Positions 39,714 to 54,017 of a stretch of 64,000 bases of DNA are shown here, piece by piece; within the stretch, counting starts at the first letter, position 1, and each line of letters starts with the position of its first letter. Source of the stretch: Clostridiaceae bacterium (lineage in GTDB: Bacteria > Bacillota > Clostridia > Lachnospirales > Lachnospiraceae); the NCBI GenBank assembly GCA_910574345.1, contig CAJSZV010000009.1, forward strand, positions 1 through 64,000, read 5' to 3'. Below the pieces are notes generated by a model that did not search any database, was not told the origin of the DNA, and saw only the letters and a list, made by a program, of their open reading frames with translations. A program made the translations under genes and the position numbers.

Positions 39714-40769
39714 TTACAACTCTTCTGCTGTAAATTCCTTCACAAGGAGAATCCCCAAAGGTCCCAGCAAAAATCCCCAAAGGCCAAAGAGCTGCAGACC
39801 AGCATAAATGGATATAAGGGTCTCCAAAGGTGTCAGCCCCACCTGGTTCGCCATCAGCCTGGCCTCCAAAATTTCCCGCAGAAAATAACATACCAGATAA
39901 ATGGCAAAAATCGCTGCCCCCCGTCCCCATCTGCCCCGCAGAAGGCAAAAAAGAGTCCACGGAATCAGAACCGTTCCTGTTCCGAATACGGGCAGAGCAT
40001 CTAAAATCCCGATCCCCGCTCCGGCCAGGATATAATAGGGATTTTTCAGAAGAAAAAATCCCGCCATACATACAATGGAAGTGAGAACCATAATAATTCC
40101 CTGGGTACGCAGATAGGCGTTGGCCGTCTCCTGAAGGAGCCTTCCAATTCTCTCAAATTCCCGGCTGTATAAAGACCTTTCTGTTTTCTCCTTCCACGCC
40201 GGTATCTCCTGAATAAACAGCAGGACTCCTATGATATATAAAACCCCAAGAATGCAGCATTGAATACAGTATTTTGCTATATTTACGGAATTTCCCATAA
40301 GATAGGGCATGACGCCCTGCTTAAGGGTACTGACGAGACTTCGTATCATGTCTCTTGCCATTCGCACCATCGTATCCTGTTTCAGAGACAGAGCCCCCTC
40401 CAGCTGCCTGCAGACTCCGGTCAGATACAGATCCAGCTGTTCCAAAAACCACGGGAAACGATTGGCCAGCATGGCCACTTCCTCATACAGCCTTTTCCCT
40501 CCCACATAAAACAGGCCGGCTGCCCAGGCTATAAGAAACGCCAGCTCAGCCAGACCCACCACCCCGGCCGGCACCCCAAAACTTCTGCCTCTCCATGACA
40601 CCTTAAGCTTTCCTGCTATGGCATAAGCCGAAGGTTTCAGCACAAGAGCCGTCATCCATGCAAACAAAAAAGGAGCGGCCAGAGGCAGCAGATACCGAAA
40701 TACCATGTATACCGCCCCTGACACTCCTATGACTCTTATGCACTTCCTGATTTTCTTATTATCCCGCAT
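39714..40769 (-). CDS. ytvI: AI-2E family / YtvI-like membrane protein
   Basis: 351 residues, about eight membrane segments. The C-terminal half has the family pattern GIGILDALPVFGTGTVLIPW and GLTPLETLISIYAGLQLFG. Closest by pattern to the sporulation membrane protein YtvI; transport substrate unknown. The start is uncertain: ATG at 40769 is given, but TTG at 40784 and GTG at 40778 are in frame and no strong RBS decides. Confidence 0.75.
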   Translation of the reverse strand: MRDNKKIRKCIRVIGVSGAVYMVFRYLLPLAAPFLFAWMTALVLKPSAYAIAGKLKVSWRGRSFGVPAGVVGLAELAFLIAWAAGLFYVGGKRLYEEVAMLANRFPWFLEQLDLYLTGVCRQLEGALSLKQDTMVRMARDMIRSLVSTLKQGVMPYLMGNSVNIAKYCIQCCILGVLYIIGVLLFIQEIPAWKEKTERSLYSREFERIGRLLQETANAYLRTQGIIMVLTSIVCMAGFFLLKNPYYILAGAGIGILDALPVFGTGTVLIPWTLFCLLRGRWGRGAAIFAIYLVCYFLREILEARLMANQVGLTPLETLISIYAGLQLFGLWGFLLGPLGILLVKEFTAEEL

Positions 40770-40873
40770 TCCTGACACCCACAATCCTGTTTTGCTGACT
40801 TATCATTATTGTGAATGCTTTTTTTTGATCTATGCAAAAGTTTTTCTGTCAGTTTCTAGCAAATAAAACTCTT

Positions 40874-42709
40874 TTAAATCTCTTCTCTCAGCCAGATAAA
40901 TCCATATGCCGGCAGAGTGACGTACCCTTCCGGGGCGCCGTCTTCCCCAGTCAGCAGATTCTTGCCGCCGCCTATCCAGGATACGGTTTTCTCGCTTCTG
41001 CTGAAATTATAGATTCCTGTAATACGCTCTGTCCCGCCGGTCCGCATAATCCCAAGAACGGAGTCATCATCCCAGCCAATGGTTTCTGCATGAGCCTGGG
41101 CTGTAAAGGATTCATGAGTTCCCCTTATGGTCTCCAACTGTCTGAGTCCTTTGAAAATCTTTCCCTGAATGGTATCCGGCTCTTTTGCTTTCCCCGCCAG
41201 TTCCCATCGGAAAGAAGAGCGATGCACGTACCGGGAATCCACTGCCTTCGCCGGTTCCTCCTTGTAGGAATAATCGTTAAGCTGTCCGATCTCATCCCCG
41301 CTGTAGATCACCGGAATCCCTGCCTGCTGCAACATAAAGGCATGGAGTGTCAGATCCAGGCGAAGGGCCTGCTCCATAGCCTCTTTGTCTTCCGTCTCAA
41401 GAGCCGCCTCCACACCGCACATGGATGCGGTAGTGCCGCAGAATCTGGCGTCCTTTGTCACAGGGTCGTCATTGTACAGTTCACCCCGGCTGAAGCTTTC
41501 CCAGACCTTGCCCGTATAAAAATCATTGAGATACTTTTTGTGGGGAACCTGCATCATATCCCAGCCTTCCAGCTGGTCATAATCGAGACCCCAGCCGATG
41601 TCGTCATGACACCGGAGATAATTTAAGAAGGTATAGGTCTTTGGCAGGCAATATACGGCATCCAGCTGTTTCCTAAGCAGCCTGATATCCTGAACCGCCA
41701 CTGTGTGCCAGATGGTAGCCATAGTCGTCACGTTGTACAGCATGTGACACTCCGGCTTTTCAACGGTTCCGAAATAAGGCGCCACCTTGGCCGGTTCCAT
41801 AACCACTTCGCCTAAAAGAAGAATGCCCGGACACACGATCTCCCCGATCATGCGCATCATGCGCACAATGGTATGGACTTGGGGCAGATTGCGGCAGCTG
41901 GTTCCCAGCTCTTTCCAGATATAGGGCACTGCGTCGATACGGATCACATCAATTCCCAGATTGGCAAAAAACAGGAAATTGTACATCATCTCGTTAAATA
42001 CCACTGGATTTCTGTAATCCAAATCCCACTGATAGGGATAAAATGTAGTCAGAACATGCTTTTTACAATCCTCAAGCCAGGTAAAATTCCCCGGCGCCGT
42101 GGTGGGGAATACCTGGGGTACAGTCTTTTCATATTCCTCCGGAATATCCCAGGTATCATAGAAGAAATACCGGTCCTCATACTCCTTCTCACCGGCTCTG
42201 GCCCGCTTGGCCCACTCGTGATCTTCTGACGTATGGTTCATGACAAAATCCAGGCATAAACTCATGCCCTGCTTATGGCAGCTGTGGGCCAGATGCTCCA
42301 GATCGTCAACGGTTCCAAGCTCCGGCTGAACCTTTCTGAAATCTGCCACCGCATAACCCCCGTCCGAGCGGTCCTTTGGAGATTCCATAAGAGGCATAAG
42401 GTGTACGTAATTCACGCCGCAGGACTGAAGATAATCCAGATGTCCCTCCACCCCTTTCAACGTGCCGCCAAAAAGGTTGGTATAAATCATCATTCCCAGC
42501 ATGTCATTGCCTTTAAACCATTCCGGATCCGCCTCCCTCTCAAGATCCAGAGCTTTCAGAGAATCGTTTCTCTCACAATACACCTTTTCCATGGTGCTGC
42601 ACAATTCATCAAACATCTCAGGAGCATCATACAATTCCATGTAAAGCCATTTTAATTCGTCCAGATGCTTTTCAAAACGCTTTTGATAAATTTCCTTTTC
42701 GCTGCCCAT
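40874..42709 (-). CDS. Amylosucrase-like GH13 enzyme
   Basis: 611 residues. GH13 barrel with an N-terminal helical region (1-65). FGGTLKGVEGHLDYL near 80, FVMNHTSEDHEWA near 155, nucleophile D259 in RIDAV, acid/base E301 in LLGEV, and H368-D369 in RCHDDIGW follow the amylosucrase pattern, which uses sucrose to build alpha-glucan or splits it. PGNFTW and TTFYPYQWDLDYRNP also match that subfamily. No signal peptide, so intracellular. The next genes are not sugar transporters. GGGAGGG precedes the ATG. Confidence 0.8.
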   Translation of the reverse strand: MGSEKEIYQKRFEKHLDELKWLYMELYDAPEMFDELCSTMEKVYCERNDSLKALDLEREADPEWFKGNDMLGMMIYTNLFGGTLKGVEGHLDYLQSCGVNYVHLMPLMESPKDRSDGGYAVADFRKVQPELGTVDDLEHLAHSCHKQGMSLCLDFVMNHTSEDHEWAKRARAGEKEYEDRYFFYDTWDIPEEYEKTVPQVFPTTAPGNFTWLEDCKKHVLTTFYPYQWDLDYRNPVVFNEMMYNFLFFANLGIDVIRIDAVPYIWKELGTSCRNLPQVHTIVRMMRMIGEIVCPGILLLGEVVMEPAKVAPYFGTVEKPECHMLYNVTTMATIWHTVAVQDIRLLRKQLDAVYCLPKTYTFLNYLRCHDDIGWGLDYDQLEGWDMMQVPHKKYLNDFYTGKVWESFSRGELYNDDPVTKDARFCGTTASMCGVEAALETEDKEAMEQALRLDLTLHAFMLQQAGIPVIYSGDEIGQLNDYSYKEEPAKAVDSRYVHRSSFRWELAGKAKEPDTIQGKIFKGLRQLETIRGTHESFTAQAHAETIGWDDDSVLGIMRTGGTERITGIYNFSRSEKTVSWIGGGKNLLTGEDGAPEGYVTLPAYGFIWLREEI

Positions 42710-42740
42710 CTTAACCCTCCCATATTTGTGTAATGACTTT

Positions 42741-42770
42741 ATTTTAGCAAACCCGCTTATGCAAAGTCAA
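42741..42770 (-). promoter_or_regulatory. Promoter of the amylosucrase-like gene
   Basis: Minus strand TTGACT (42770-42765), 18-base spacer, TAAAAT (42746-42741). Confidence 0.6.
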
Positions 42771-42793
42771 TACTATCCGCCGTCTGTTTGCAA

Positions 42794-42843
42794 TAAAAAG
42801 GAGCCGGCCATTCAGGCAGAAACTCCTTAACATGGTCAGCTCC
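42794..42843 (-). terminator. Terminator of the oligopeptide transporter operon
   Basis: GGAGCTGACCAT/ATGGCCGGCTCC stem (42843-42832, 42811-42800) with CTTTTTATTG tail on the minus strand. Confidence 0.75.
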
Positions 42844-42862
42844 CAGTAACATTATTCTGATC

Positions 42863-43816
42863 TTATTCACTTAAAAAGCAGGAAACAAAATGTCCCGGCC
42901 TGATCTCCTTAAGCTGCGGCTCCCCATTCCTGCATCGGTCTGTGGCATGAGGACAGCGGTTTGCAAACCGGCAGGCAGCCGGAGGTTCGATAGGAGATGT
43001 TATCTCACCTTTTAAGAGAATCCTCTCTCTGCGGTTATCCAGGGACGGAACCGGAATGGCAGACAGAAGAGCTTTTGTATAGGGATGGGTCGGATTGGCA
43101 AACAATTCCTCAGAGGGAGCCTTTTCAATAAGCTTTCCAAGATACATAACGGCAATATCATCGGAAAAGTGGTTGACAACAGACAGATCATGAGTAATGA
43201 ACATGTAAGTCAGCCCCATCTTTTTCTGAAGCTCCTTCATCAGGTTCAGAATCTGTGCCTGAATCGAAACATCCAAAGCCGAAACCGGCTCGTCACAGAC
43301 AATGAACTTGGGATTGAGTGCCAGCGCACGGGCAATACCGATTCTCTGACGGCGGCCGCCGTCCAGCTCATGAGGATAGGTGTTGATGAGACGGTCAGCA
43401 AGTCCTACAATCTCCATAAGCTCACGCACACGCTCCAGCTGTTTGGCCGGATCCGTAATAATCTTATTGATCTTAAGGGGATCTGCAATAATCTGGCTGA
43501 TGGTCTTACGGGGATTCAGGCTGGAAAAGGGATCCTGGAAAATAATCTGCATCTCCGTACGCTTTTTCCTCATCTCTTCCTTGGAGAGCTTTACCACATC
43601 CTGGCCTTCAAACAGTACCTCACCGGATGTAGGTTCAAGCAGCCTTAAGATCGCCCGTCCCGTTGTGGACTTTCCGCAGCCGGACTCTCCAACCACACCA
43701 AGGGTTTTCCCTTTTTCAATGGTGAAGGTGACATCGTCAACGGCGTGGAGCATCCCCTTAGGCGTGCTGAAATATTTCTTTAAATTTCTAACGTCAAGCA
43801 ACGGCTGTGTACTCAT
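42863..43816 (-). CDS. oppF: Oligopeptide/dipeptide ABC transporter ATPase (OppF/DppF)
   Basis: 317 residues. Walker [14 protein letters not shown] near residue 38, Walker [15 protein letters not shown] near 165, and the C-terminal Opp-type extension with Cys residues ([17 protein letters not shown] near 280). The signature reads ELDGGRRQR instead of FSGGQRQR, a variant that keeps the second Gly. Its ATG overlaps the end of oppD by 4 bases. Last gene of the operon. Confidence 0.9.
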
Positions 43817-44826
43817 CGGCTCTTCACCTTCCCTTCCTGAATATTATCCTTGTTATACAGGTGGCATTCAACGTAATGGGTATCGCTGCGGTAGGTACGG
43901 CCCGGTTTCTCGGTCTTGCAGATATCCATGGCATAATCGCAGCGCGGACAGAAGGCACAGCCCTTTGGCAGATTGCTGGGATCAGGCATTAAACCCTTGA
44001 TGGGCTTTAGCTCAGCCTGACGGTCTTCCAGGTTGGGAAGGGAGTTGAAAAGTCCTTCCGTATAAGGATGACGGGTATTTTTGAAGATATCCTCAAGGGT
44101 TCCATGCTCGATGACACGGCCGGCATAAATAACAGAAACTTTGTCGCAGATCTCCGCGACGATTCCCAGGTCATGGGTAATCATCAGCATGGATGTATTA
44201 TATTTCTCACGAAGACCTTTCATCATCTCCAGAACCTGTGCCTGAATGGTCACATCCAAAGCTGTAGTAGGCTCGTCGGCAATCAAAAGTTCCGGGTTGC
44301 AGGCAAGAGCCATGGCAATAACCACGCGCTGCTTCATACCACCGGAAAACTGATGGGGATACTCGCCGCCCCTGCTTCCGGGGATGCCTACCAGTTCCAG
44401 CATCTCTCTGGCCCGCTTTAAGGCCTCGGCCTGTCCGCCTTCCTCATGAAGTTTAATTACCTCGGCAATCTGCTGCTCAACGGTCATAACCGGGTCCAAT
44501 GAGGTCATGGGATCCTGGAAGATCATAGCCACAGTCTTACCGCGGATAGCCTGCATCTCCTTATCGCCCATGGAAAGAATATCCTTTCCGTCAAGCTTGA
44601 TGGAACCGGAGACGATAACGCCCGGCGGGTTTGGAATCAGACGCAGGAGAGAAAGGCCCGTAGTCGTCTTGCCGGCACCGGTTTCGCCTACCAGTCCCAG
44701 AGTCTTACCTCTTTCAATCTCCAGTTCCAGGCCGTTTAAAGCCTGAACAACGCCGTAATCCGTGCGGAACTCCACAACCAGATCCTTGATCTCGGCAGTT
44801 AAATCTTTTTTCGCATTTTCACTCAT
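43813..44826 (-). CDS. oppD: Oligopeptide/dipeptide ABC transporter ATPase (OppD/DppD)
   Basis: 337 residues. Walker [14 protein letters not shown] near residue 42, signature FSGGMKQRV near 165, Walker [14 protein letters not shown] near 185, and the OppD-type C-terminal Cys stretch ([14 protein letters not shown] near 298). Pairs with OppF to power import. Intact signature contrasts with the variant in OppF. Confidence 0.93.
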
Positions 44827-44838
44827 CTCGGCACCTCC

Positions 44839-45732
44839 TTAACGCAGTCTGGGATCAAGGGCATCACGCAGACCGTCGCCCAACAGATTCAGGGAAAGGA
44901 TGGTGATCATGATCGCAAGTCCCGGGAACATACACATATAGCTGTAGTCACGTATATAGGAACGGGAACCGGAAAGCATGGCGCCCCATTCTGGTCTCGG
45001 AGCCGGGATACCAAGGCCGATAAAGGAAAGTCCGGCTATGGAAAGAATAACCGAAGCTACCTCCAGAGTAGTCTGAACAATAATCGGAGCCAGGCTGTTG
45101 GGAAGGACATCATGGAAAATAATGGTGGTGTCTTTGGCTCCTATGGCACGGGCCGCTTCCACGTATTCGGAATCACGGACCGTCATGACGGCGCCCCGGA
45201 CCACGCGGGCAAATTTAGGCGTGGCGGACACTGCCTGGGCAATGATCAGATTCATAATGGAATTGCCAAGGGACGCAACGATACAGATTGCCAAAAGCGT
45301 TCCTGGAATAGCCAGAAAAATATCCATAATACGCATAATAATCATGTCCACTTTACCGCCAAAATATCCTGCTGCAGAACCTAACACCAATCCTACAGCC
45401 AAGGCCACAATCACCGTGACGATACCGATAGAAAGGGAAGTTGAAGTGGCGTACAGGGTACGGATCAGAATGTCACGGCCCAGCTCATCCGTACCGAAAG
45501 GATGCTCCGCAGACGGAGGCTGAAGGGTGCTGGAATAATCGGTCTTGATTACCTGTGTCTCATAGTCAAAAATGATAGGAGAGAGGATACCGATCAGAAC
45601 TAAGAGGCTGACGATCACAAGTCCCAAAACAGCCGTTTTGTTGCGGCAGAGACGTTTCCAGACATCCACAAACTGGCTTTTTTTCTTGACAGAAATTTGT
45701 TCATTTTCTTTTACAGCAGAAACACTGTTCAT
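44839..45732 (-). CDS. oppC: Oligopeptide/dipeptide ABC transporter permease (OppC/DppC)
   Basis: 297 residues, six membrane segments with the N-terminal cytoplasmic extension (1-30) typical of OppC. GTDELGRDILIRTLYATSTS near residue 78 and the EAA loop EAARAIGAKDTTIIFHDVLPN near 195. AGGAGG precedes the ATG. Confidence 0.93.
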   Translation of the reverse strand: MNSVSAVKENEQISVKKKSQFVDVWKRLCRNKTAVLGLVIVSLLVLIGILSPIIFDYETQVIKTDYSSTLQPPSAEHPFGTDELGRDILIRTLYATSTSLSIGIVTVIVALAVGLVLGSAAGYFGGKVDMIIMRIMDIFLAIPGTLLAICIVASLGNSIMNLIIAQAVSATPKFARVVRGAVMTVRDSEYVEAARAIGAKDTTIIFHDVLPNSLAPIIVQTTLEVASVILSIAGLSFIGLGIPAPRPEWGAMLSGSRSYIRDYSYMCMFPGLAIMITILSLNLLGDGLRDALDPRLR

Positions 45733-45747
45733 ATTTTATCCTCCTTC

Positions 45748-46677
45748 CTATTTATACTGCGCTTTAATACGCGGATCAATAAAGCCGTAAATCAAATCCA
45801 CAAGCAGATTGATGAGTGCAAAGCCGATGGCAAAGATAATGATGCAGCCCATAACCGAAGGAATGTCGCGGCCCTGAATGGACTGAATCATATAACGCCC
45901 GATTCCCGGCCATGCAAAAACACTCTCCGTGAGAACGGAACCGCCAAGCATCTGGCCGATCTGCAAACCGATAACCGTAGTAGTCGGGATCAGAGCGTTG
46001 CGCAGAGCGTGGTCTGTAATGATCTCATGTTCCGGAAGTCCCTTGGCGCGTACGGTACGGATATAATCCTGACGAATGGTCTCAAGCATGGAACTTCGCG
46101 TCGTACGGGCGATGGCAGCCATGTGCATGAACCCTAATGCCACGGAAGGCAGCACCAGGCTCTTTATTCCCTGATCAGCACCGGCCACAGGGAACCATCC
46201 CAGTTTTACGGAGAAGAAAAGAATCAATAAAAGTCCCATCCAGAAGACAGGCATGGAAATACCCAATAGCGATATGAACATACTGACACCGTCAAACAGC
46301 GTATTTTGCTTGATGGCGGCAATAATGCCCAGAGGCAGAGCAAGGAGAATGGCAACTACCGTGGAGGTCAGCGCCAGCGTAATGGTATTGGGAAGACGGG
46401 CCCATACCTCCTCGCCTACGGGATCCCGGGTCTTGTAGGAAGTTCCCAGGTCTCCCTGAACCAGATCGAACATATACCGGCCATAGCGGACGATAAACGG
46501 ATCGTTGAGCCCCATCTCCTCCCGCAGTGCGGCAATGTCTTCAGGACGCGCCTGCTCGCCCAGAATGGTTTTGGCAGGATCGCCGGGAGCCAGGTCAAGG
46601 ATAAAAAATACCAGCAAGGTAACGCCAAGCAGAACAGGAATCAGCGCCACCAGACGTTTGATAATAAACTTGATCAT
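45748..46677 (-). CDS. oppB: Oligopeptide/dipeptide ABC transporter permease (OppB/DppB)
   Basis: 309 residues, six membrane segments. Starts with the OppB pattern IKRLVALIPVLLGVTLLVFF; EAA loop RTVRAKGLPEHEIITDHALRN near 192 and final YGFIDPRIK. AAAGGAGG precedes the ATG. Follows the binding-protein gene after a gap of 91 bases that includes a hairpin. Confidence 0.93.
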   Translation of the reverse strand: MIKFIIKRLVALIPVLLGVTLLVFFILDLAPGDPAKTILGEQARPEDIAALREEMGLNDPFIVRYGRYMFDLVQGDLGTSYKTRDPVGEEVWARLPNTITLALTSTVVAILLALPLGIIAAIKQNTLFDGVSMFISLLGISMPVFWMGLLLILFFSVKLGWFPVAGADQGIKSLVLPSVALGFMHMAAIARTTRSSMLETIRQDYIRTVRAKGLPEHEIITDHALRNALIPTTTVIGLQIGQMLGGSVLTESVFAWPGIGRYMIQSIQGRDIPSVMGCIIIFAIGFALINLLVDLIYGFIDPRIKAQYK

Positions 46678-46700
46678 GCTGTGTGATCCCCTCCTTTCTT

Positions 46701-46734
46701 AAGTTTAAAAAAGGAACCGGCCCCGCCAGGGGCC
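46701..46734 (-). terminator. Intercistronic hairpin after the binding-protein gene
   Basis: CGGCCCC-TGGC-GGGGCCG (46734-46717) then GTTCCTTTTTT on the minus strand. Probably a leaky terminator or 3' stabiliser that keeps binding protein in excess over permeases. Confidence 0.65.
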
Positions 46735-46768
46735 GATCCCTGTCTAAATGCAGGTTAAACCATATTGA

Positions 46769-48376
46769 TTAGTTTCCCCAGCTCATCCAGTCGTAGTACG
46801 TATTGCCGCCTGCATTCAGATTGAAGCCGGCCAGACCGGAATCGTAAGCGCGGACATTATTACGCATGTACAGCGGAACCTGAGGACACAGTTCGTTAAT
46901 GGCAAGGTTGAACTCTGTAACGATCTTCTCATTCTCAGCCTGATCAACGGTTGCCTGGATCTTCTCGATCAGAGCGTCAATCTCCGGCTCGTTGGTACGG
47001 GTCTTGTTGGAAGCGTTAATGGAATCGGAGTGATATACGCCCTGTGCATAAGCCAGCAGAGAGTTGGAGGTATATCCGCCGATAGCAGCGTCATAGTCTC
47101 CTGTTGCCGTCACATCAAGATATGTAGCAAGGTCCATGGACTCCAGAGTAATATCAATTCCAAGATTCTCCTTTAAGCAGCTCTGAATAACCTGGCCTAC
47201 ACGAAGCTTGGTATCATCGGAACAGATCAGGGCAAAACCGCAGTCAGCCGCATTCAGTCCGGACTCGGCAAAGTAAGCCTTAGCCTTCTCCACATCATAG
47301 GTGGGAGCGCCTTCGTTAGTCGTTCCTGGGAAGCAGTCCGGAACCATGGAATCAGCTACCGTACCTGCACCGTTTAAAGCCACCTGAATAATCGCGTTCT
47401 TGTCAATGGCGGCATCAATGGCACGACGGAAGTTCACATTGTCAAAAGGAGCCTTCTCATTGTTGATCATCATAAAGTTGTGAGAAGTGGAACCCTCGTT
47501 GAAAACAGCTACCTTGGAATTATCTGCCAGACGGGAAAGATCGTTGTTCTCCACCTCGACGATTAAGTCAGCCTCGCCTGCCTCAAGTGCCATGGTACGG
47601 GAAGAACCTTCGGGGATTACCTTCCAGATCACTTTCTTGATGGGAGGCTCGCCCTTGAAATAATCTGCAAATGCTTCAAACTCAAGGCTCTCGCCCTTGT
47701 TCCACGCAGTCAACTTGTATGGGCCTGTACCAATAGGCTCTTTGTTGAAATCATGACCGCTTTCGATCAGAGCGGCGGGAAGAATGGCGTTGCCGTGATG
47801 GCAAAGATCAATCAAAAGACCGGACTGAGGGCCGTCTGTGGTGATCTTTACTGTGTAGTCATCAACTACCTCAATGGTTCCGGTGGAAGTTCCGTACAGG
47901 GAAACATCGGGGGAAACCTTACAAAGCTCCAGAGAAGCCTTAACGTCTGCAGCCTTCATCTCCTCGCCGTTGTGGAACTTCACGCCCTGTTTCAGCTTGA
48001 ATACCCACTCGGTGTCGCTGGGGTTCTCGTAGCTCTCAACCAGATCCGGCTGTACAGCCATGTTCTCATCCATATAGAACAGACAGTTATGAGTCATTCT
48101 GTTCAGATAATCTCCGGCTACTGCGTTATGCAGGTTTGTGGTTACGCTTGGCGTCTCATTGGCTGTTACGATAATCAGAGTGTCCTTACCTGATGAGGAA
48201 GCTGCTCCTGAACCAGAAGCGTCTCCTGAGCCGCCCGCTGCCTGAGTAGTATCTGCTCCTCCCTGAGTCGTATCGGAACTACCCTGTTTGTTCCCTGAAC
48301 TGCAGCCGGTAAACAGACTGGCGGCAAGGGAAAGGACCATTGCAGTGGCAAAAACCCGCAGTGTTCTTTTTCTCAT
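46769..48376 (-). CDS. oppA: Oligopeptide/dipeptide ABC transporter solute-binding lipoprotein
   Basis: 535 residues, SBP family 5. Lipoprotein signal: hydrophobic core then LFTGC with Cys25, followed by a Ser/Gly/Thr-rich linker (26-70). WVFKLKQGVKFHNGEEMKA near 135, EPIGTGPYKL near 208 and RRAIDAAIDKNAII near 325 are typical. First gene of the importer operon; divergent from the esterase operon. Ligand not readable: peptides, modified peptides, or the product of the divergent operon. Confidence 0.92.
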   Translation of the reverse strand: MRKRTLRVFATAMVLSLAASLFTGCSSGNKQGSSDTTQGGADTTQAAGGSGDASGSGAASSSGKDTLIIVTANETPSVTTNLHNAVAGDYLNRMTHNCLFYMDENMAVQPDLVESYENPSDTEWVFKLKQGVKFHNGEEMKAADVKASLELCKVSPDVSLYGTSTGTIEVVDDYTVKITTDGPQSGLLIDLCHHGNAILPAALIESGHDFNKEPIGTGPYKLTAWNKGESLEFEAFADYFKGEPPIKKVIWKVIPEGSSRTMALEAGEADLIVEVENNDLSRLADNSKVAVFNEGSTSHNFMMINNEKAPFDNVNFRRAIDAAIDKNAIIQVALNGAGTVADSMVPDCFPGTTNEGAPTYDVEKAKAYFAESGLNAADCGFALICSDDTKLRVGQVIQSCLKENLGIDITLESMDLATYLDVTATGDYDAAIGGYTSNSLLAYAQGVYHSDSINASNKTRTNEPEIDALIEKIQATVDQAENEKIVTEFNLAINELCPQVPLYMRNNVRAYDSGLAGFNLNAGGNTYYDWMSWGN

Positions 48377-48448
48377 AATGCTCTCACCTCTTAATATTTA
48401 TTTGCACGGCCATAAGGCCGGATGCATCGAAAAGCAAACTATTTTAGT

Positions 48449-48477
48449 AATATAACATAATTTTAACGGTAAATCAA
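48449..48477 (-). promoter_or_regulatory. Promoter of the importer operon
   Basis: Minus strand TTGATT (48477-48472), 17-base spacer, TGT-TATATT (-10 at 48454-48449). GGTAA (48468-48472) and TTACC (48487-48491) form an inverted repeat over the -35, a possible operator. Confidence 0.6.
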
Positions 48478-48534
48478 TACAAAATGTTACCATTTTATTA
48501 CTTTAAACTTATGCACTAACAAATCATTCAAATC

Positions 48535-48563
48535 TTGATATTTGACTTTTCTTGTGCTATATT
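48535..48563 (+). promoter_or_regulatory. Promoter of the esterase/ATP-grasp operon
   Basis: TTGATA (48535-48540), 17-base spacer, TATATT (48558-48563), followed by GGGAGG before the ATG at 48602. Confidence 0.65.
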
Positions 48564-48601
48564 TAACGCAACAAACTAAACACACTGGATAGGGAGGAAG
48601 T

Positions 48602-49369
48602 ATGATAGAGAAGTGGGATATCACCATCCCGGAACTGACAGGCAGCGAAACACGGAAGGCCTACCTGTATCTTCCGGATTATTATGACGAGACACCTGAT
48701 GAACATTATCCTGTTCTTTATATGTTTGACGGACACAATGTATTTTTTGATTCAGACGCCACTTACGGCAAAAGCTGGGGCATGAAGGAATTCATGGAAG
48801 AAAACCGGGTTCCGCTGATCATCGCTGCAGTGGAATGCAATCACAGCCCCGACCACGGACGTCTGAAAGAATATTCCCCTTATACCTTTCGGGACCCCCA
48901 GTTCGGGCAGATTCCCGGATGGGGCAAGATCACCATGGAGTGGATGATTCATAAGTTTAAGCCGGAGATCGACAGTATGGTCCGCACGCGCCCTGACCGT
49001 GAGCACACATTTATTGCCGGCAGCTCCATGGGGGGACTTATGAGCCTGTACGCATTGCTCCAGTATAACCGGTATTTTTCCAAAGCCGCTGCCCTTTCCC
49101 CTTCTCTCTGGGTGGATCCGGACAGGCTTTCGCTTTTAATCCGCACTGCAAGGCTTCACCCTGACACCACTCTTTACATGGATTATGGGTCAAAAGAGCT
49201 TGCCAATCATTCCAATATGATCCACAGTTTCGGGAACCTTGTATCTCTTCTTATGGAGCGCCGGATATTTGTTAACTGCCGGATTGTTCCCGGCGGCGAA
49301 CACTGCGAAGCCAGCTGGGAACAGCAGATTCCGTTTTTTATGGAGACATTGTTCTATAAAGAGCATTAG
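48602..49369 (+). CDS. Esterase, alpha/beta hydrolase (esterase D/Fes-like)
   Basis: 255 residues, no signal peptide. PF00756-type fold: nucleophile S142 in GSSMGG, oxyanion stretch MFDGHNVFF near 41, candidate acid near DYGSKE (about 194) and catalytic H234 in GGEHCEASW. Related enzymes hydrolyse acylglutathione, siderophore esters or acyl sugars. First gene of a three-gene operon with a second esterase 15 bases on and an ATP-grasp ligase. Substrate unknown. Confidence 0.82.
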   Translation: MIEKWDITIPELTGSETRKAYLYLPDYYDETPDEHYPVLYMFDGHNVFFDSDATYGKSWGMKEFMEENRVPLIIAAVECNHSPDHGRLKEYSPYTFRDPQFGQIPGWGKITMEWMIHKFKPEIDSMVRTRPDREHTFIAGSSMGGLMSLYALLQYNRYFSKAAALSPSLWVDPDRLSLLIRTARLHPDTTLYMDYGSKELANHSNMIHSFGNLVSLLMERRIFVNCRIVPGGEHCEASWEQQIPFFMETLFYKEH

Positions 49370-49384
49370 AAGGAGGAAACCACA

Positions 49385-50137
49385 ATGGAAATGCAGTATT
49401 TTAAAAATTACAGCCCGGCCCTTGACCGGGATATGGAATGCAAGGTCTATGGACATGGGGGAAGGCCGGTGCTTTTTATTCCATGTCAGGACGGACGCTT
49501 TTTTGATTTCGAGAATTATAAGATGGCTGATGTATGGTCTCCCTGGATCGAATCGGGACGGGTTATGGTATTTGCAATCGACACCATAGATCAGGAAACC
49601 TGGTCCAACAAAAGCGGCGATCCCGGCTGGCGCATCTGGCGCCACGAGCAGTGGGTTCGCTATATTACCGACGAGATGGTTCCGTTTATACGGGCCGTAG
49701 TCAATGAACGCAACGGATGGAACGGATATCCGGGGATCATCACCTTCGGCTGCAGCCTGGGCGCGACCCATGCCGCCACCTTGTTCTTCCGCCGCCCGGA
49801 CCTTTTTGACGGCGTCCTGGCTCTCAGCGGAATCTACACCGCCGACTATGGATTTGACGGGTTTATGAATGAGCTGGTATACAATAACTCACCGGTTCAT
49901 TTTCTTCCCAACATGCCTTCTGACCATCCATATATTGATATGTACAATCAAAGGAAAGGCATTATCTGCGTGGGGCAGGGACCATGGGAAATTCCTGATT
50001 CCACCAGACAGCTTGACGGGATTCTTAAGAGCAAAGGCATCCAGCTGTGGGTAGATTACTGGGGGTATGACTGTGCCCACGACTGGCCCTGGTGGTACAA
50101 GCAGGTAACTTATTTTGTACCGTACCTCTTAGAGTAA
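49385..50137 (+). CDS. Esterase-family protein, second copy
   Basis: 250 residues. Nucleophile S124 in GCSLGATHA; GHGGRPVLFIPCQDGRFFDFENY near residues 23-45 and YDCAHDWPWWYKQ near the C-terminus supply the other active-site parts. The PF00756 type is clear but it is only distantly similar to the preceding esterase, so it is not a simple tandem duplication. AAGGAGG precedes the ATG. Together with the next gene it suggests coupled making and breaking of an ester or amide. Confidence 0.8.
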   Translation: MEMQYFKNYSPALDRDMECKVYGHGGRPVLFIPCQDGRFFDFENYKMADVWSPWIESGRVMVFAIDTIDQETWSNKSGDPGWRIWRHEQWVRYITDEMVPFIRAVVNERNGWNGYPGIITFGCSLGATHAATLFFRRPDLFDGVLALSGIYTADYGFDGFMNELVYNNSPVHFLPNMPSDHPYIDMYNQRKGIICVGQGPWEIPDSTRQLDGILKSKGIQLWVDYWGYDCAHDWPWWYKQVTYFVPYLLE

Positions 50138-50186
50138 TACTGCACCAATATATCAATCTCAAACAAAAGAAGGGAAGGGACATAGT

Positions 50187-51380
50187 ATGAAAAACTGTAT
50201 CTTTATCTCGCCGAATTTTCCCACAAATTATTGGCAGTTCTGCCATGAGCTGAAAAATAACGGCATGAATGTACTGGGGATCGGCGATCAGCCTTATGAC
50301 GAATTGACAGATGAGCTGAAAAACAGCTTAAACGAGTACTACAAAGTCACCAGCCTGGAAAATGAAGATGAAGTCTACCGGGCCGTCGCATTCTTTATTT
50401 TCAAGCATGGACGCATAGACTGGCTGGAATCCAACAACGAATATTGGCTGGAGCGAGACGCAAAGCTGAGGACGGATTTCCATATCACCAGCGGTTTTCA
50501 GGTGGAAGACATTCCGCGGATTAAATTTAAATCCCGGATGAAGGAATACTATATCAAGGCCAAAATTCCGGTTGCACGCCATCATCTGGTAGATACTCTT
50601 GAAGGCTGTCTTGCATTTATTAAAACAGTGGGCTATCCCGTCATAGCAAAACCTGACAACGGAGTGGGAGCGGCTCACACCTACAAGCTCTCTGACGACG
50701 AAGAGCTTAAGACTTTTCTGGAGCGGAAACTTCCCGATATTCCTTATATCATGGAAGAATTCATCGACGCTGAGGTGAACTCTTATGATGCTGTCATCGG
50801 CGCCGACGGCGAGCCTTTATTCGAGACCGGCAATGTGACTCCCAACTCCATTATGGATATTGTCAACAATGCCGACAACTCCATCTATTATATCGTAAAG
50901 GAACTGGCCCCGGATACCAGGGAAGCCGGACGGGCCGCTGTAAAAAGTTTCGGTGTTAAAAGCCGTTTCGTTCATTTTGAGTTCTTCCGTCTTCTGAAAG
51001 ACCATGAAGGCCTTGGCAAAAAAGGGCAGATTACCGCTCTGGAAGTCAATATGCGTCCCTGCGGCGGCTTCACTCCGGATATGATTAACTTTGCCCACAG
51101 CACCAATGTCTACAAAATCTGGGCCGATATGATTGCCTTTGGCCGCTCCACCGTACCCGTAGGCAAACATGCCTACTGCGCATTCGCAGGACTGCGGGAC
51201 GGGAAAAACTTTGTTATGAGTCATGAGGATATTATGGAAAAATACGGAAAGAACATGAGGATGGTGGGAAGAATTCCCGATGTGCTGTCAGGAGCCATGG
51301 GCAACCAGATGTATGTAGCGGTATTTGATACCAAGAGACAGCTGGATTCATTCTATAAAAATGTTTTAAAATGCAAATAG
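50187..51380 (+). CDS. ATP-grasp ligase
   Basis: 397 residues. N-terminal Rossmann-like domain (1-110), then ATP-grasp: RMKEYYIKAKIPVARH near 117, lysine K155 in VIAKPDNGVGAAHTY, adenine-binding YIMEEFIDAEV near 187, and metal ligands E286 and N288 in ALEVNMRPCGG. Forms a C-N bond between a carboxylate and an amine through an acyl phosphate. Carbamoyl-phosphate and biotin carboxylase-like domains are absent. No known pathway is adjacent; candidate products are a dipeptide or amino acid conjugate. Confidence 0.83.
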   Translation: MKNCIFISPNFPTNYWQFCHELKNNGMNVLGIGDQPYDELTDELKNSLNEYYKVTSLENEDEVYRAVAFFIFKHGRIDWLESNNEYWLERDAKLRTDFHITSGFQVEDIPRIKFKSRMKEYYIKAKIPVARHHLVDTLEGCLAFIKTVGYPVIAKPDNGVGAAHTYKLSDDEELKTFLERKLPDIPYIMEEFIDAEVNSYDAVIGADGEPLFETGNVTPNSIMDIVNNADNSIYYIVKELAPDTREAGRAAVKSFGVKSRFVHFEFFRLLKDHEGLGKKGQITALEVNMRPCGGFTPDMINFAHSTNVYKIWADMIAFGRSTVPVGKHAYCAFAGLRDGKNFVMSHEDIMEKYGKNMRMVGRIPDVLSGAMGNQMYVAVFDTKRQLDSFYKNVLKCK

Positions 51381-51430
51381 CCTGCGTTCATATTTTATTC
51401 AAAAAACATTCAAAAACCTTTTACACAATG

Positions 51431-51555
51431 AACATGATTTCTTCATGTTTCCTGCCTATACTATAACTATCAACAACAAAGGTTGATAAGCCAATGCAAG
51501 TGCTTATAAGATTTTTTTCATAATACTCGAGCTGATAAAGTTACTTTATCAGCTC
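51431..51555 (+). other. Hairpin-rich intergenic region
   Basis: AACATGA/TCATGTT (51431-51449), TATCAAC/GTTGATA (51468-51488), overlapping ATAAGC/GCTTAT followed by A-AG-T7 (about 51485-51518, a likely terminator), and a 12-bp stem GAGCTGATAAAG/CTTTATCAGCTC (51529-51555). Overlapping stems are mutually exclusive. No coding gene is seen in 51381-51631. Confidence 0.45.
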
Positions 51556-51581
51556 TCCTCCCTTTTATCCCTTAATAAAAG

Positions 51582-51627
51582 TAAGAGACCCATACCTTTC
51601 ACAGCCGGTATCGGTCTCTTATTTTTT
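51582..51627. terminator. Bidirectional terminator
   Basis: AAGAGACC..ATACC/GGTAT..GGTCTCTT stem (51583-51620) with ATTTTTT on the plus side and TTTTATT on the minus side; serves the convergent antiporter gene. Confidence 0.75.
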
Positions 51628-51631
51628 ATGT

Positions 51632-52567
51632 CTACCGCACAATGATATATACGGTATATACTGCATACAGCCCCAGCATACAGAGTCCTTCCCGCCTGGT
51701 AACCGCCATTTTTGTCTTTCCCAGATACCATACAAAACAGCTGGACAAGATCAGAAAAAGAGCGTCAAAAATCGACAAAACATCTACTTTCATCGGACTG
51801 ATAAAGGCTGACGCCGCCAGCACAAGGAGGATGTTAAACAGATTGGAGCCGATTACATTGCCCAGGGCCAGGCTGTCCTCACCCTTTTTGGATGCAACCA
51901 CAGAAGTCACAAGCTCCGGCAGGGAAGTTCCGAAGGCCACCACAGTCAGTCCGATCAAAGTCTGGCTCAGCCCAAAGGAAGCCGCAATAATCGTGGCGTT
52001 ATCTACTACCAGATCGCCTCCGTACACAATAGCCGTCAGGCCTCCGCCAATAAATATTACGCTTTTAACCGGATTCTGCGCCTTGATGTCCTCCCCGTCC
52101 AAAACGCCTCCAAGGGCACGGCTTGCCAGGGTATTCCGTATCATCTGGAACAGAAAATATCCAAAAACCGCCAGGAGAATGCATCCGTCCAAGCGGCTCA
52201 GGGTCCGGTCTGCCATAAACAAAGCAAGCATCATAACCGTCACAAAAATACCAAAGAGATAATCTCCATACAAAACCTTCTTGTCCACTGCCACCGGAGC
52301 CACTATGCTGCAGGCTCCTATGACCACCAAGAGGTTAAAAATGTTGGAACCAATCACATTGCCCACAGCAATGTCATTATTCTCCGCCACAGAGGCGGAC
52401 AAGCTCACTGCAAGTTCCGGGGCGCTGGTGCCAAAAGCAACGATGGTTAAACCAATGATAATCGTAGGCACCCGCAAAAGTTTTGCAATGGAAGAACTTC
52501 CCTCCACAAAAAAATCCGCTCCTTTGATCAGCAGGACAAATCCTGCAATCAGCCATATATATTCCAT
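51632..52567 (-). CDS. Calcium/sodium antiporter (CaCA family, YrbG-like)
   Basis: 311 residues, about ten membrane segments in two inverted repeats. Each has the alpha-repeat motif: GLTIVAFGTSAPELAVS near residue 38 with VGNVIGSNIFN, and GLTVVAFGTSLPELVTS near 200 with LGNVIGSNLFN. Exchanges Ca2+ for Na+ across the membrane. ATG at 52567 has GGAGAG 6 bases upstream; the in-frame TTG six codons earlier precedes that RBS. Confidence 0.93.
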   Translation of the reverse strand: MEYIWLIAGFVLLIKGADFFVEGSSSIAKLLRVPTIIIGLTIVAFGTSAPELAVSLSASVAENNDIAVGNVIGSNIFNLLVVIGACSIVAPVAVDKKVLYGDYLFGIFVTVMMLALFMADRTLSRLDGCILLAVFGYFLFQMIRNTLASRALGGVLDGEDIKAQNPVKSVIFIGGGLTAIVYGGDLVVDNATIIAASFGLSQTLIGLTVVAFGTSLPELVTSVVASKKGEDSLALGNVIGSNLFNILLVLAASAFISPMKVDVLSIFDALFLILSSCFVWYLGKTKMAVTRREGLCMLGLYAVYTVYIIVR

Positions 52568-52640
52568 GTTGTTCTCTCCCTTCAAGGGAAAGTATATTGC
52601 ATTGCCTTTTTTCTTGTCAAGGTACTTTGCAAAAAATCAC

Positions 52641-54017
52641 TTAAGGATATCGGACATGGCTGTGCAGCATCAAAATCGCCGCCATATTGGGAAAGGCCAT
52701 AAGTCCGTTCCAGATATCCGACAGCTCCCACACAGCCGTCATGGTGCTGACGCATCCCAGAAATACGGAATACCCGTAGAGAATCAGATATCCCGCTTTT
52801 ATCTTCTGAACCGTGCTGTCTGTCATATTCACCCACCGGCTCATTTGAGCTGTAACCGCTTCCAGTGTCTGGCATCCCAGATAATACCAGGCGATCATGG
52901 TTGCAAATGCAAAGACCACCATGGAACCGGACACCAGATACCGGCCGGCTCCTCCCAGCACCGCCTCAAAGCAATAGGCAGTGAGAACGGCTCCGTCGTA
53001 AGAACCGCCTGCCGGATTCCCGGCTCCTCCCGTAACGCAGAGGATTACCAGGGCCGTCATGGTACAGATAACCACCGTATCAAAAAACACCTCAAACATA
53101 GCCCACATTCCCTGCTCAGAGGGGGTTGTGTCTTCCGCCGCTCCGTGAAGGCCGGCCAGGCTTCCCAATCCTGCTTCGTTGGAGAAGACGCCTCTTGCAA
53201 TCCCATATCGGAAAGCCCTGGCGATGCCGTATCCGCCTGCTCCCCCAACCATGGACTTGGGAAGCAGGGCACTTGCAAAGATTTCCTGAAACGCAGGAAT
53301 AATTCGGCTCCGGCATATAATCAGAACTGCCGCGGAAAACAGGATGTAGATGCCTGCAGATACGGGAACCAGGCGTTCGGCCACCCAGGCTACCCGATAT
53401 TTTCCTCCTATAGTCACAAAGACTACCAGCCCCGTAATGACAGCCGCACACAGTATGGGAGCTGCCCCCGTGAGATAGCATACGGTCTCAGCTGCGGCAT
53501 TGGACTGCACCATGCTGCCCATTCCCAGAGAGGCCATGAGACACAATATGCCGTACAGAAAACTGAATGCCGGTTTTCCAAGCCCCCGGTCAAGATATAC
53601 CATAGGACCGCAGATCCACCGTCCTTTGGCATCGCGGTATCGGTAAACGATCCCTAAGCTGGTCTCCGCATAGGCGGTCATCATGCCCAGTGCCGCGGAG
53701 ACCCACATCCAGAAGATCGCTCCCGGTCCCCCGGCAGTCAAAGCCGAGGCCACGCCTACGATATTCCCCGTCCCTATGGTGGCTGCAAGAGCCGTGCATG
53801 CAGCCTGTATCTTACTGATGGAATCCGTCTGTCCGGTATGTCCCGGCCCATGGTTTTTGTCTTTTTGCCTAAAAAGGCTTCCTATTGTACTTCCCCACCA
53901 TGTTCCAAACCCCCGAAACTGAAATCCACCTGACTCCAATGTAAAAAACAAACCGCCAAAGAGCAGAAGCCCCAAAAGTACAGGCCCCCATACCATGCCA
54001 TGCAGATGATGAATCAT
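52641..54017 (-). CDS. Sodium/alanine symporter (AGCS family)
   Basis: 458 residues, about eleven membrane segments. Family motifs GTGNIVGVASALTAGGPGAIFWMW near residue 85 (first part) and GIARGVFSNEAGLGS near 280. Sodium-coupled uptake of alanine or glycine. The start is uncertain: ATG at 54017 is given; TTG at 54029 is in frame. RBS is weak (GGGGCAGG). Confidence 0.9.
   Translation of the reverse strand: MIHHLHGMVWGPVLLGLLLFGGLFFTLESGGFQFRGFGTWWGSTIGSLFRQKDKNHGPGHTGQTDSISKIQAACTALAATIGTGNIVGVASALTAGGPGAIFWMWVSAALGMMTAYAETSLGIVYRYRDAKGRWICGPMVYLDRGLGKPAFSFLYGILCLMASLGMGSMVQSNAAAETVCYLTGAAPILCAAVITGLVVFVTIGGKYRVAWVAERLVPVSAGIYILFSAAVLIICRSRIIPAFQEIFASALLPKSMVGGAGGYGIARAFRYGIARGVFSNEAGLGSLAGLHGAAEDTTPSEQGMWAMFEVFFDTVVICTMTALVILCVTGGAGNPAGGSYDGAVLTAYCFEAVLGGAGRYLVSGSMVVFAFATMIAWYYLGCQTLEAVTAQMSRWVNMTDSTVQKIKAGYLILYGYSVFLGCVSTMTAVWELSDIWNGLMAFPNMAAILMLHSHVRYP

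Follow-up and report, generated by a model that had tools for sequence, protein, structure and literature searches.

An ATP-grasp enzyme and its hydrolase partners in a Lachnospiraceae genome: a recurrent cassette beside an independent peptide importer

The E1-E2-AG genes and their co-occurrence

The window analysed here, a stretch of 64,000 nucleotides from a Clostridiaceae bacterium, carries on its plus strand three co-directional genes, which are referred to as E1, E2, and AG. E1 (48602–49369) encodes a 255-residue α/β hydrolase of family PF00756, which Pfam and a profile search place among CE1/IroE-like enzymes. E2 (49385–50137) encodes a 250-residue α/β hydrolase of the same family, assigned by Pfam and predicted structure, and is the regular companion of AG. 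AG (50187–51380) encodes a 397-residue ATP-grasp enzyme whose predicted structure is nearest to those of L-amino acid ligases. The genes are tightly spaced, with gaps of 15 bases between E1 and E2 and 49 bases between E2 and AG, and a gap of 225 bases separates E1 from the gene for the substrate-binding protein (SBP) of an importer. An earlier, sequence-only reading had described these co-directional genes, their tight gaps, and the importer across the 225-base gap; all are present as it stated, according to Pfam and the list of open reading frames (ORFs), which agrees with its gene positions together with the translations. The interval given in that reading (46769–51380) takes in the SBP gene and no other importer gene.

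Genomes were examined in an order sample (146 genomes) and a phylum sample (398 genomes), which overlap in some genomes and both contain the source genome. AG is present in 12 genomes of the order sample and 12 of the phylum sample. Because the scans of the phylum sample scored at most four candidates per genome for AG and at most six for E2, the counts from this sample are lower bounds. A species-level genome collection was also scanned with the AG alignment: at least 574 of 594 pattern-matched stretches (stretches, not genomes) encode AG relatives, and the best 80 of these were kept as named loci. Besides these, a second set comprises 26 AG loci whose neighborhoods were typed. By label, the best 80 loci belong mostly to Lachnospiraceae, Oscillospiraceae, and other Clostridia, and many are of gut or rumen origin; Faecalibacterium prausnitzii, Faecalicatena contorta, and Flintibacter muris are among the species. 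One locus, L123, lies in a bin labelled Mailhella, a relative of Desulfovibrio, and holds the full triad with a 67% identical AG, which reflects either transfer or mis-binning.

By profile, the 80 best loci comprise 64 with the order E1-E2-AG, six with E2-AG, six with E1-AG, and four with AG alone, three of which end a short distance upstream; where the upstream sequence reaches 2 kb or more (67 loci), all three genes occur in 58. The order E1-E2-AG is thus more frequent than chance would give, albeit among mutually related loci. In the second set, all three genes are found in five loci, E2-AG in nine, AG-E2 in six, E1-AG in two, and AG alone in four; E2 adjoins AG in 20 of the 26, in either gene order.

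Genomes that encode just one of AG and E2 are rare. The E2 profile matches 13 of the 146 order genomes, including all 12 that encode AG, and in the thirteenth (G053) a contig end truncates E2. Of the 398 genomes in the phylum sample, ten have E2; each of them also has AG, with the two genes adjacent. Fisher tests of this co-occurrence gave 1e-16 for the order and 3e-18 for the phylum, values that ignore kinship. In genome G195, the E2 beside AG is split into two reading frames (L049, 8161–8905), which reflects a pseudogene or a sequencing error. Ten of the 80 named loci have no local E2. Four of them (L059, L075, L129, and L134) have short upstream sequence and were left out, and the check was made on the other six, whose upstream sequence reaches 2 kb or more (L093, L098, L107, L112, L120, and L132). 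All six genomes encode E2 elsewhere, and four of them hold a second AG beside that distant E2; the former check covered 12 chosen genomes and the latter nine. Six of the 26 loci of the second set also lack a local E2: four lie in genomes where E2 sits beside another AG (G017, G102, G103, and G127), and two in G444 and G466. Distances of E2 and AG are correlated with an r value of 0.92 (88 loci), and those of E1 and AG with 0.885 (70 loci). One Peptoclostridium megaplasmid and two rhizobial plasmids carry the AG-E2 pair as well, and the pair therefore crosses phyla. The proposal that the esterases and the ligase form a system is consequently upheld insofar as the genes recur together across families and the AG-E2 pair reaches another phylum.

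E1 is facultative, since it is missing from 10 of the 80 and 19 of the 26 loci. At the genome level, it was matched at an E-value of 1e-40 in 13 of the 146 order genomes. Matches above 270 bits come from six genomes, all with AG, and the seven genomes with weaker matches are without AG. In G111, E1 sits on a different contig from AG.

Enzyme families and predicted folds

Both hydrolases pass the PF00756 cut-off of 22 bits (E1, 67.9 bits; E2, 42.3 bits), and neither passes any NCBIfam model. As in PF00756 hydrolases, a GxSxG serine is followed by an invariant glutamate and histidine: Ser142, Glu199, and His234 are invariant in 21 E1 sequences, and Ser124, Glu202, and His232 in 34 E2 sequences. 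These residues are putative catalytic triads, in which the acid was chosen by chain order. The predicted model of E2 is nearest to feruloyl esterases, with one from Bacteroides the closest, and to esterase D, and its fold is common to the feruloyl esterase BT_4077, S-formylglutathione hydrolase, and antigen 85, with 11–18% sequence identity. Unlike known PF00756 hydrolases, E2 is as a rule genomically tied to an ATP-grasp enzyme.

For E1, the likeness to the siderophore esterases IroE, BES, and Fes consists in a single-sequence search, in which the IroE-like hydrolase 3gff ranked first (9.4e-9). In the profile search, however, feruloyl esterases were the best match (6rzo, 6e-18), ahead of IroE-like enzymes (1.4e-12) and BES (6.7e-12), and E1 reaches just 28 bits on the enterochelin esterase model NF007758, whose cut-off is 222. 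Siderophore esterase contexts differ as well, as no other family recurs beside the E1-E2-AG cassette. In Pararhizobium, a siderophore receptor and binding protein are located 6.5–10 kb away from AG. On the NF007758 score, E1 was rejected as a siderophore esterase; given also the better profile fit of feruloyl esterases, the siderophore-like ester substrate suggested by the sequence-only reading finds little support, the top IroE-like rank notwithstanding.

AG is matched marginally by the Pfam ATP-grasp models, with 19.8 bits for PF02786 (cut-off 19.8) and 19.8 bits for PF13535 (cut-off 27). Seven NCBIfam models matched AG, none of them near its cut-off; whether a model of the AG family exists there was left unchecked. 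The predicted structure shows an ATP-grasp fold over the full length, and the nearest solved structures are those of the L-amino acid ligases BL00235 and RizA. Among 45 sequences, Lys155, Glu265, Glu286, Asn288, and Arg290 are invariant. The same holds for Gly293, which, together with Lys155, Glu265, Glu286, and Arg290, aligns with identical RizA residues, comprising ATP/Mg residues and the motif arginine. The conserved arginine of AG belongs to the sequence E-x-x-x-R-x-x-G, which we take to be the L-amino acid ligase motif. Yet AG shares just 15–19% identity with the L-amino acid (dipeptide) ligases BL00235, RizA, and BacD/YwfE, and it differs from them in having hydrolases as partners. In the alignment, the position of Thr81-Glu82-Lys83-Ser84 of RizA is occupied by Asn84-Glu85-Tyr86-Trp87 of AG, where Asn84, Glu85, and Trp87 are invariant in the AG family. 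A C–N ligase, as AG had been called from its sequence, remains the best reading suggested by the fold and residue comparison.

Proposed chemistry and alternative explanations

On these grounds, we consider it reasonably probable that E1-E2-AG is a cassette in which AG couples a carboxylate to an amine, the hydrolases act on the acyl group of the same compound, and the adjacent importer is uninvolved. It would be an accessory set of enzymes that has a promoter-like site of its own and no recurrent transporter or regulator alongside. AG would use ATP to convert a carboxylate, which is probably an amino acid or a similar small acid, to an acyl phosphate and would couple this to an amine in the manner of RizA and BacD. 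E2, together with E1 where present, may subsequently act on an acyl ester of the same compound, by hydrolysis or transfer, and the net outcome would be a small amino-acid conjugate made or remodelled in the cytosol. The rarity of the ligase without this one hydrolase suggests that the two share a substrate. More tentatively, and with doubt prevailing, AG-E2 might be the core of an undescribed cross-phylum chemistry, pairing an L-amino-acid-ligase-like enzyme with an antigen-85-like acyl hydrolase/transferase. E1 would join it in gut Clostridia, and gut bacteria such as Faecalibacterium would make small amino-acid conjugates of a new class.

Amidoligases were reportedly surveyed by Iyer and colleagues in 2009. 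The folds are already known; the novelty is the regular ligase-hydrolase partnership, which is nameless in Pfam, NCBIfam, and PADLOC as searched. No description of it was found in searches of the open-licence literature, including PMC9321006 and PMC2922099, although a mention deeper in the texts of the other listed papers is possible. The AG-E2 pairing represents a sharply defined, testable two-enzyme case in gut bacteria, and, if AG makes a peptide-like metabolite, this would be a so far unread gut-bacterial product.

Several observations weigh against the coupling of a ligase and its hydrolases in one chemistry. A shared fold does not prove a reaction, and in the structure comparison the lead of the L-amino acid ligases over PurK and GAR-synthetase-type enzymes is only about 3 Z. 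Two of the 12 phylum-sample genomes with AG (G444 and G466) are without E2, and the frequent absence of E1 from the loci, given above, tells in the same direction. The correlation of E2 and AG distances falls to 0.69 among 69 near relatives, indicating that shared ancestry contributes. Conversely, plasmid records of Rhizobium and Thiodictyon contain E2-like proteins (about 31% identity) but gave no AG match. On a Massilia litorea plasmid (L149, 7869–11170), a class III aminotransferase and a methyltransferase precede AG, with no E2; judging from its genes, this appears to be a separate small pathway that employs the same ligase family.

The importer lies on the minus strand and, by Pfam and NCBIfam, is complete and of the oligopeptide/nickel type (42863–48376). 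It comprises the SBP (PF00496; 46769–48376), two BPD_transp_1 permeases of the OppB/OppC type (45748–46677 and 44839–45732), and two ABC ATPases with oligo_HPY of the OppD/OppF type (43813–44826 and 42863–43816); OppB passes NF045470 with 354.4 bits against a cut-off of 350. Its divergent orientation and the common 225-base gap, which had led to its description as a partner, would fit a single uptake-and-processing system with the operon, an arrangement seen in the source genome only. In tblastn searches (E 1e-8) of all 106 AG loci (26 and 80), of which 23 and 61, respectively, have at least 4.5 kb of sequence upstream of AG, OppB and OppC had no match, and the SBP had one, of 23% identity and 7 kb away, in L123. 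In the closest relative (L055, AG 86% identical), an amylase 88% identical to the one bordering the importer in the window stops some 0.3 kb short of E1, and no importer lies in that space; the matches to window positions 39732–42704 and 48500–51589 are separated by 194 bases. In L056, the downstream neighbors are kept, but upstream of E1 the contig extends for just some 0.2 kb. An SBP relative (E 1e-60) was found in one of 21 chosen genomes of related loci, with 33% identity. Within the order sample, the source genome (G000) and four others have the SBP, and none of those four has AG. The free separation in relatives that the sequence-only reading had named as evidence against a partnership is therefore observed; the importer was ruled out as a partner and looks like an unrelated, independent neighbor, and a joint system is exceedingly improbable. 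The importer would have been gained here or lost from relatives and would be no fixed part of the cassette.

Salvage or detoxification is a more serious alternative, although we regard it as unlikely. In this case, E1 and E2 would cleave acyl esters of dietary, plant, or host origin entering the cell, and AG would turn the freed acid into an amino-acid amide. The fit of the E1 profile to feruloyl/CE1 esterases (6rzo, 6e-18), the proximity of the E2 model to a Bacteroides feruloyl esterase, the gut or rumen labels of most of the best 80 loci alongside rhizobial members, and the sporadic occurrence of AG (12 of 398 phylum-sample genomes) are consistent with this. However, no export signal is evident by eye in the translations of E1, E2, and AG, two neighbor clusterings show no recurrent uptake gene near the cassette, and the habitat signal may be biased because the genome collection is rich in gut genomes. 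It is also very improbable, if slightly less so than a joint system with the importer, that AG is a graspetide-type peptide cyclase whose hydrolases process a ribosomal peptide. Graspetide ATP-grasp enzymes form lactones and lactams (PMC8939145), but the 15- and 49-base gaps leave no space for a precursor gene within the operon, and comparison by eye of the immediate flanks (225 bases before and 252 after the operon) with three relatives showed no conserved small ORF. Moreover, the AG fold is closest to ligases of free amino acids.

Neighborhood and flanking sequence features

Neither of two neighbor clusterings revealed a further recurrent partner, transporter, or regulator. The first gave one cluster of 48 loci, taken as antisense ORFs, which disappeared in the second, where ORFs overlapping E1, E2, or AG were excluded. 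The commonest families in the second were an ABC ATPase (assigned by eye) in 21 of 110 loci, nine of them near AG, and another family in 11 loci, seven of them near. Inserts between E2 and AG differ in family, with a hybrid histidine kinase in L109 and DUF6273 in L114. In Pararhizobium, AG-E2 lies beside malonate genes, a context unseen among ten typed ORFs, nine of which are from Sinorhizobium.

PADLOC gave no match for E1, E2, or AG at an E-value of 0.01, by which a known anti-phage defence system was rejected. An RNA switch was likewise rejected, as Rfam had no match in window positions 40000–53000 at an E-value of 1, and in nine loci its matches were limited to tRNA, tRNA-Sec, and pemK (two). 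None of 12 pattern-matched stretches from a viral contig collection encodes an AG relative. AG was found on three short faecal contigs labelled ‘Bacteriophage sp.’, which are perhaps bacterial DNA. The unverified faecal ‘Bacteriophage sp.’ contig L153 (MT836893.1) has an AG 71% identical to that of the window, and may be bacterial DNA in a virus preparation.

A promoter-like site precedes E1 on the plus strand (48535–48563), with TTGATA and TATATT separated by 17 nucleotides and the latter preceded by TG. Promoter-like sites exceed expectation in the stretch (13 found versus 5.9 expected), and the case for a promoter here therefore rests on conservation: the TGCTATATT part of the site is identical in four relatives, including L055, which argues that the operon is independent of the gap shared with the importer. 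Downstream of AG, a 27-base palindrome on the plus strand (51529–51555) is near-identical in L055 and L056. Although absent from the terminator scan list, this hairpin is perhaps a terminator. It lies in a stretch of about 80 bases (window 51495–51585) that is near-identical, by eye, in both relatives, whereas the aligned surroundings are about 77–79% identical. This stretch has a single match in the genome and a folding z of −4.8.

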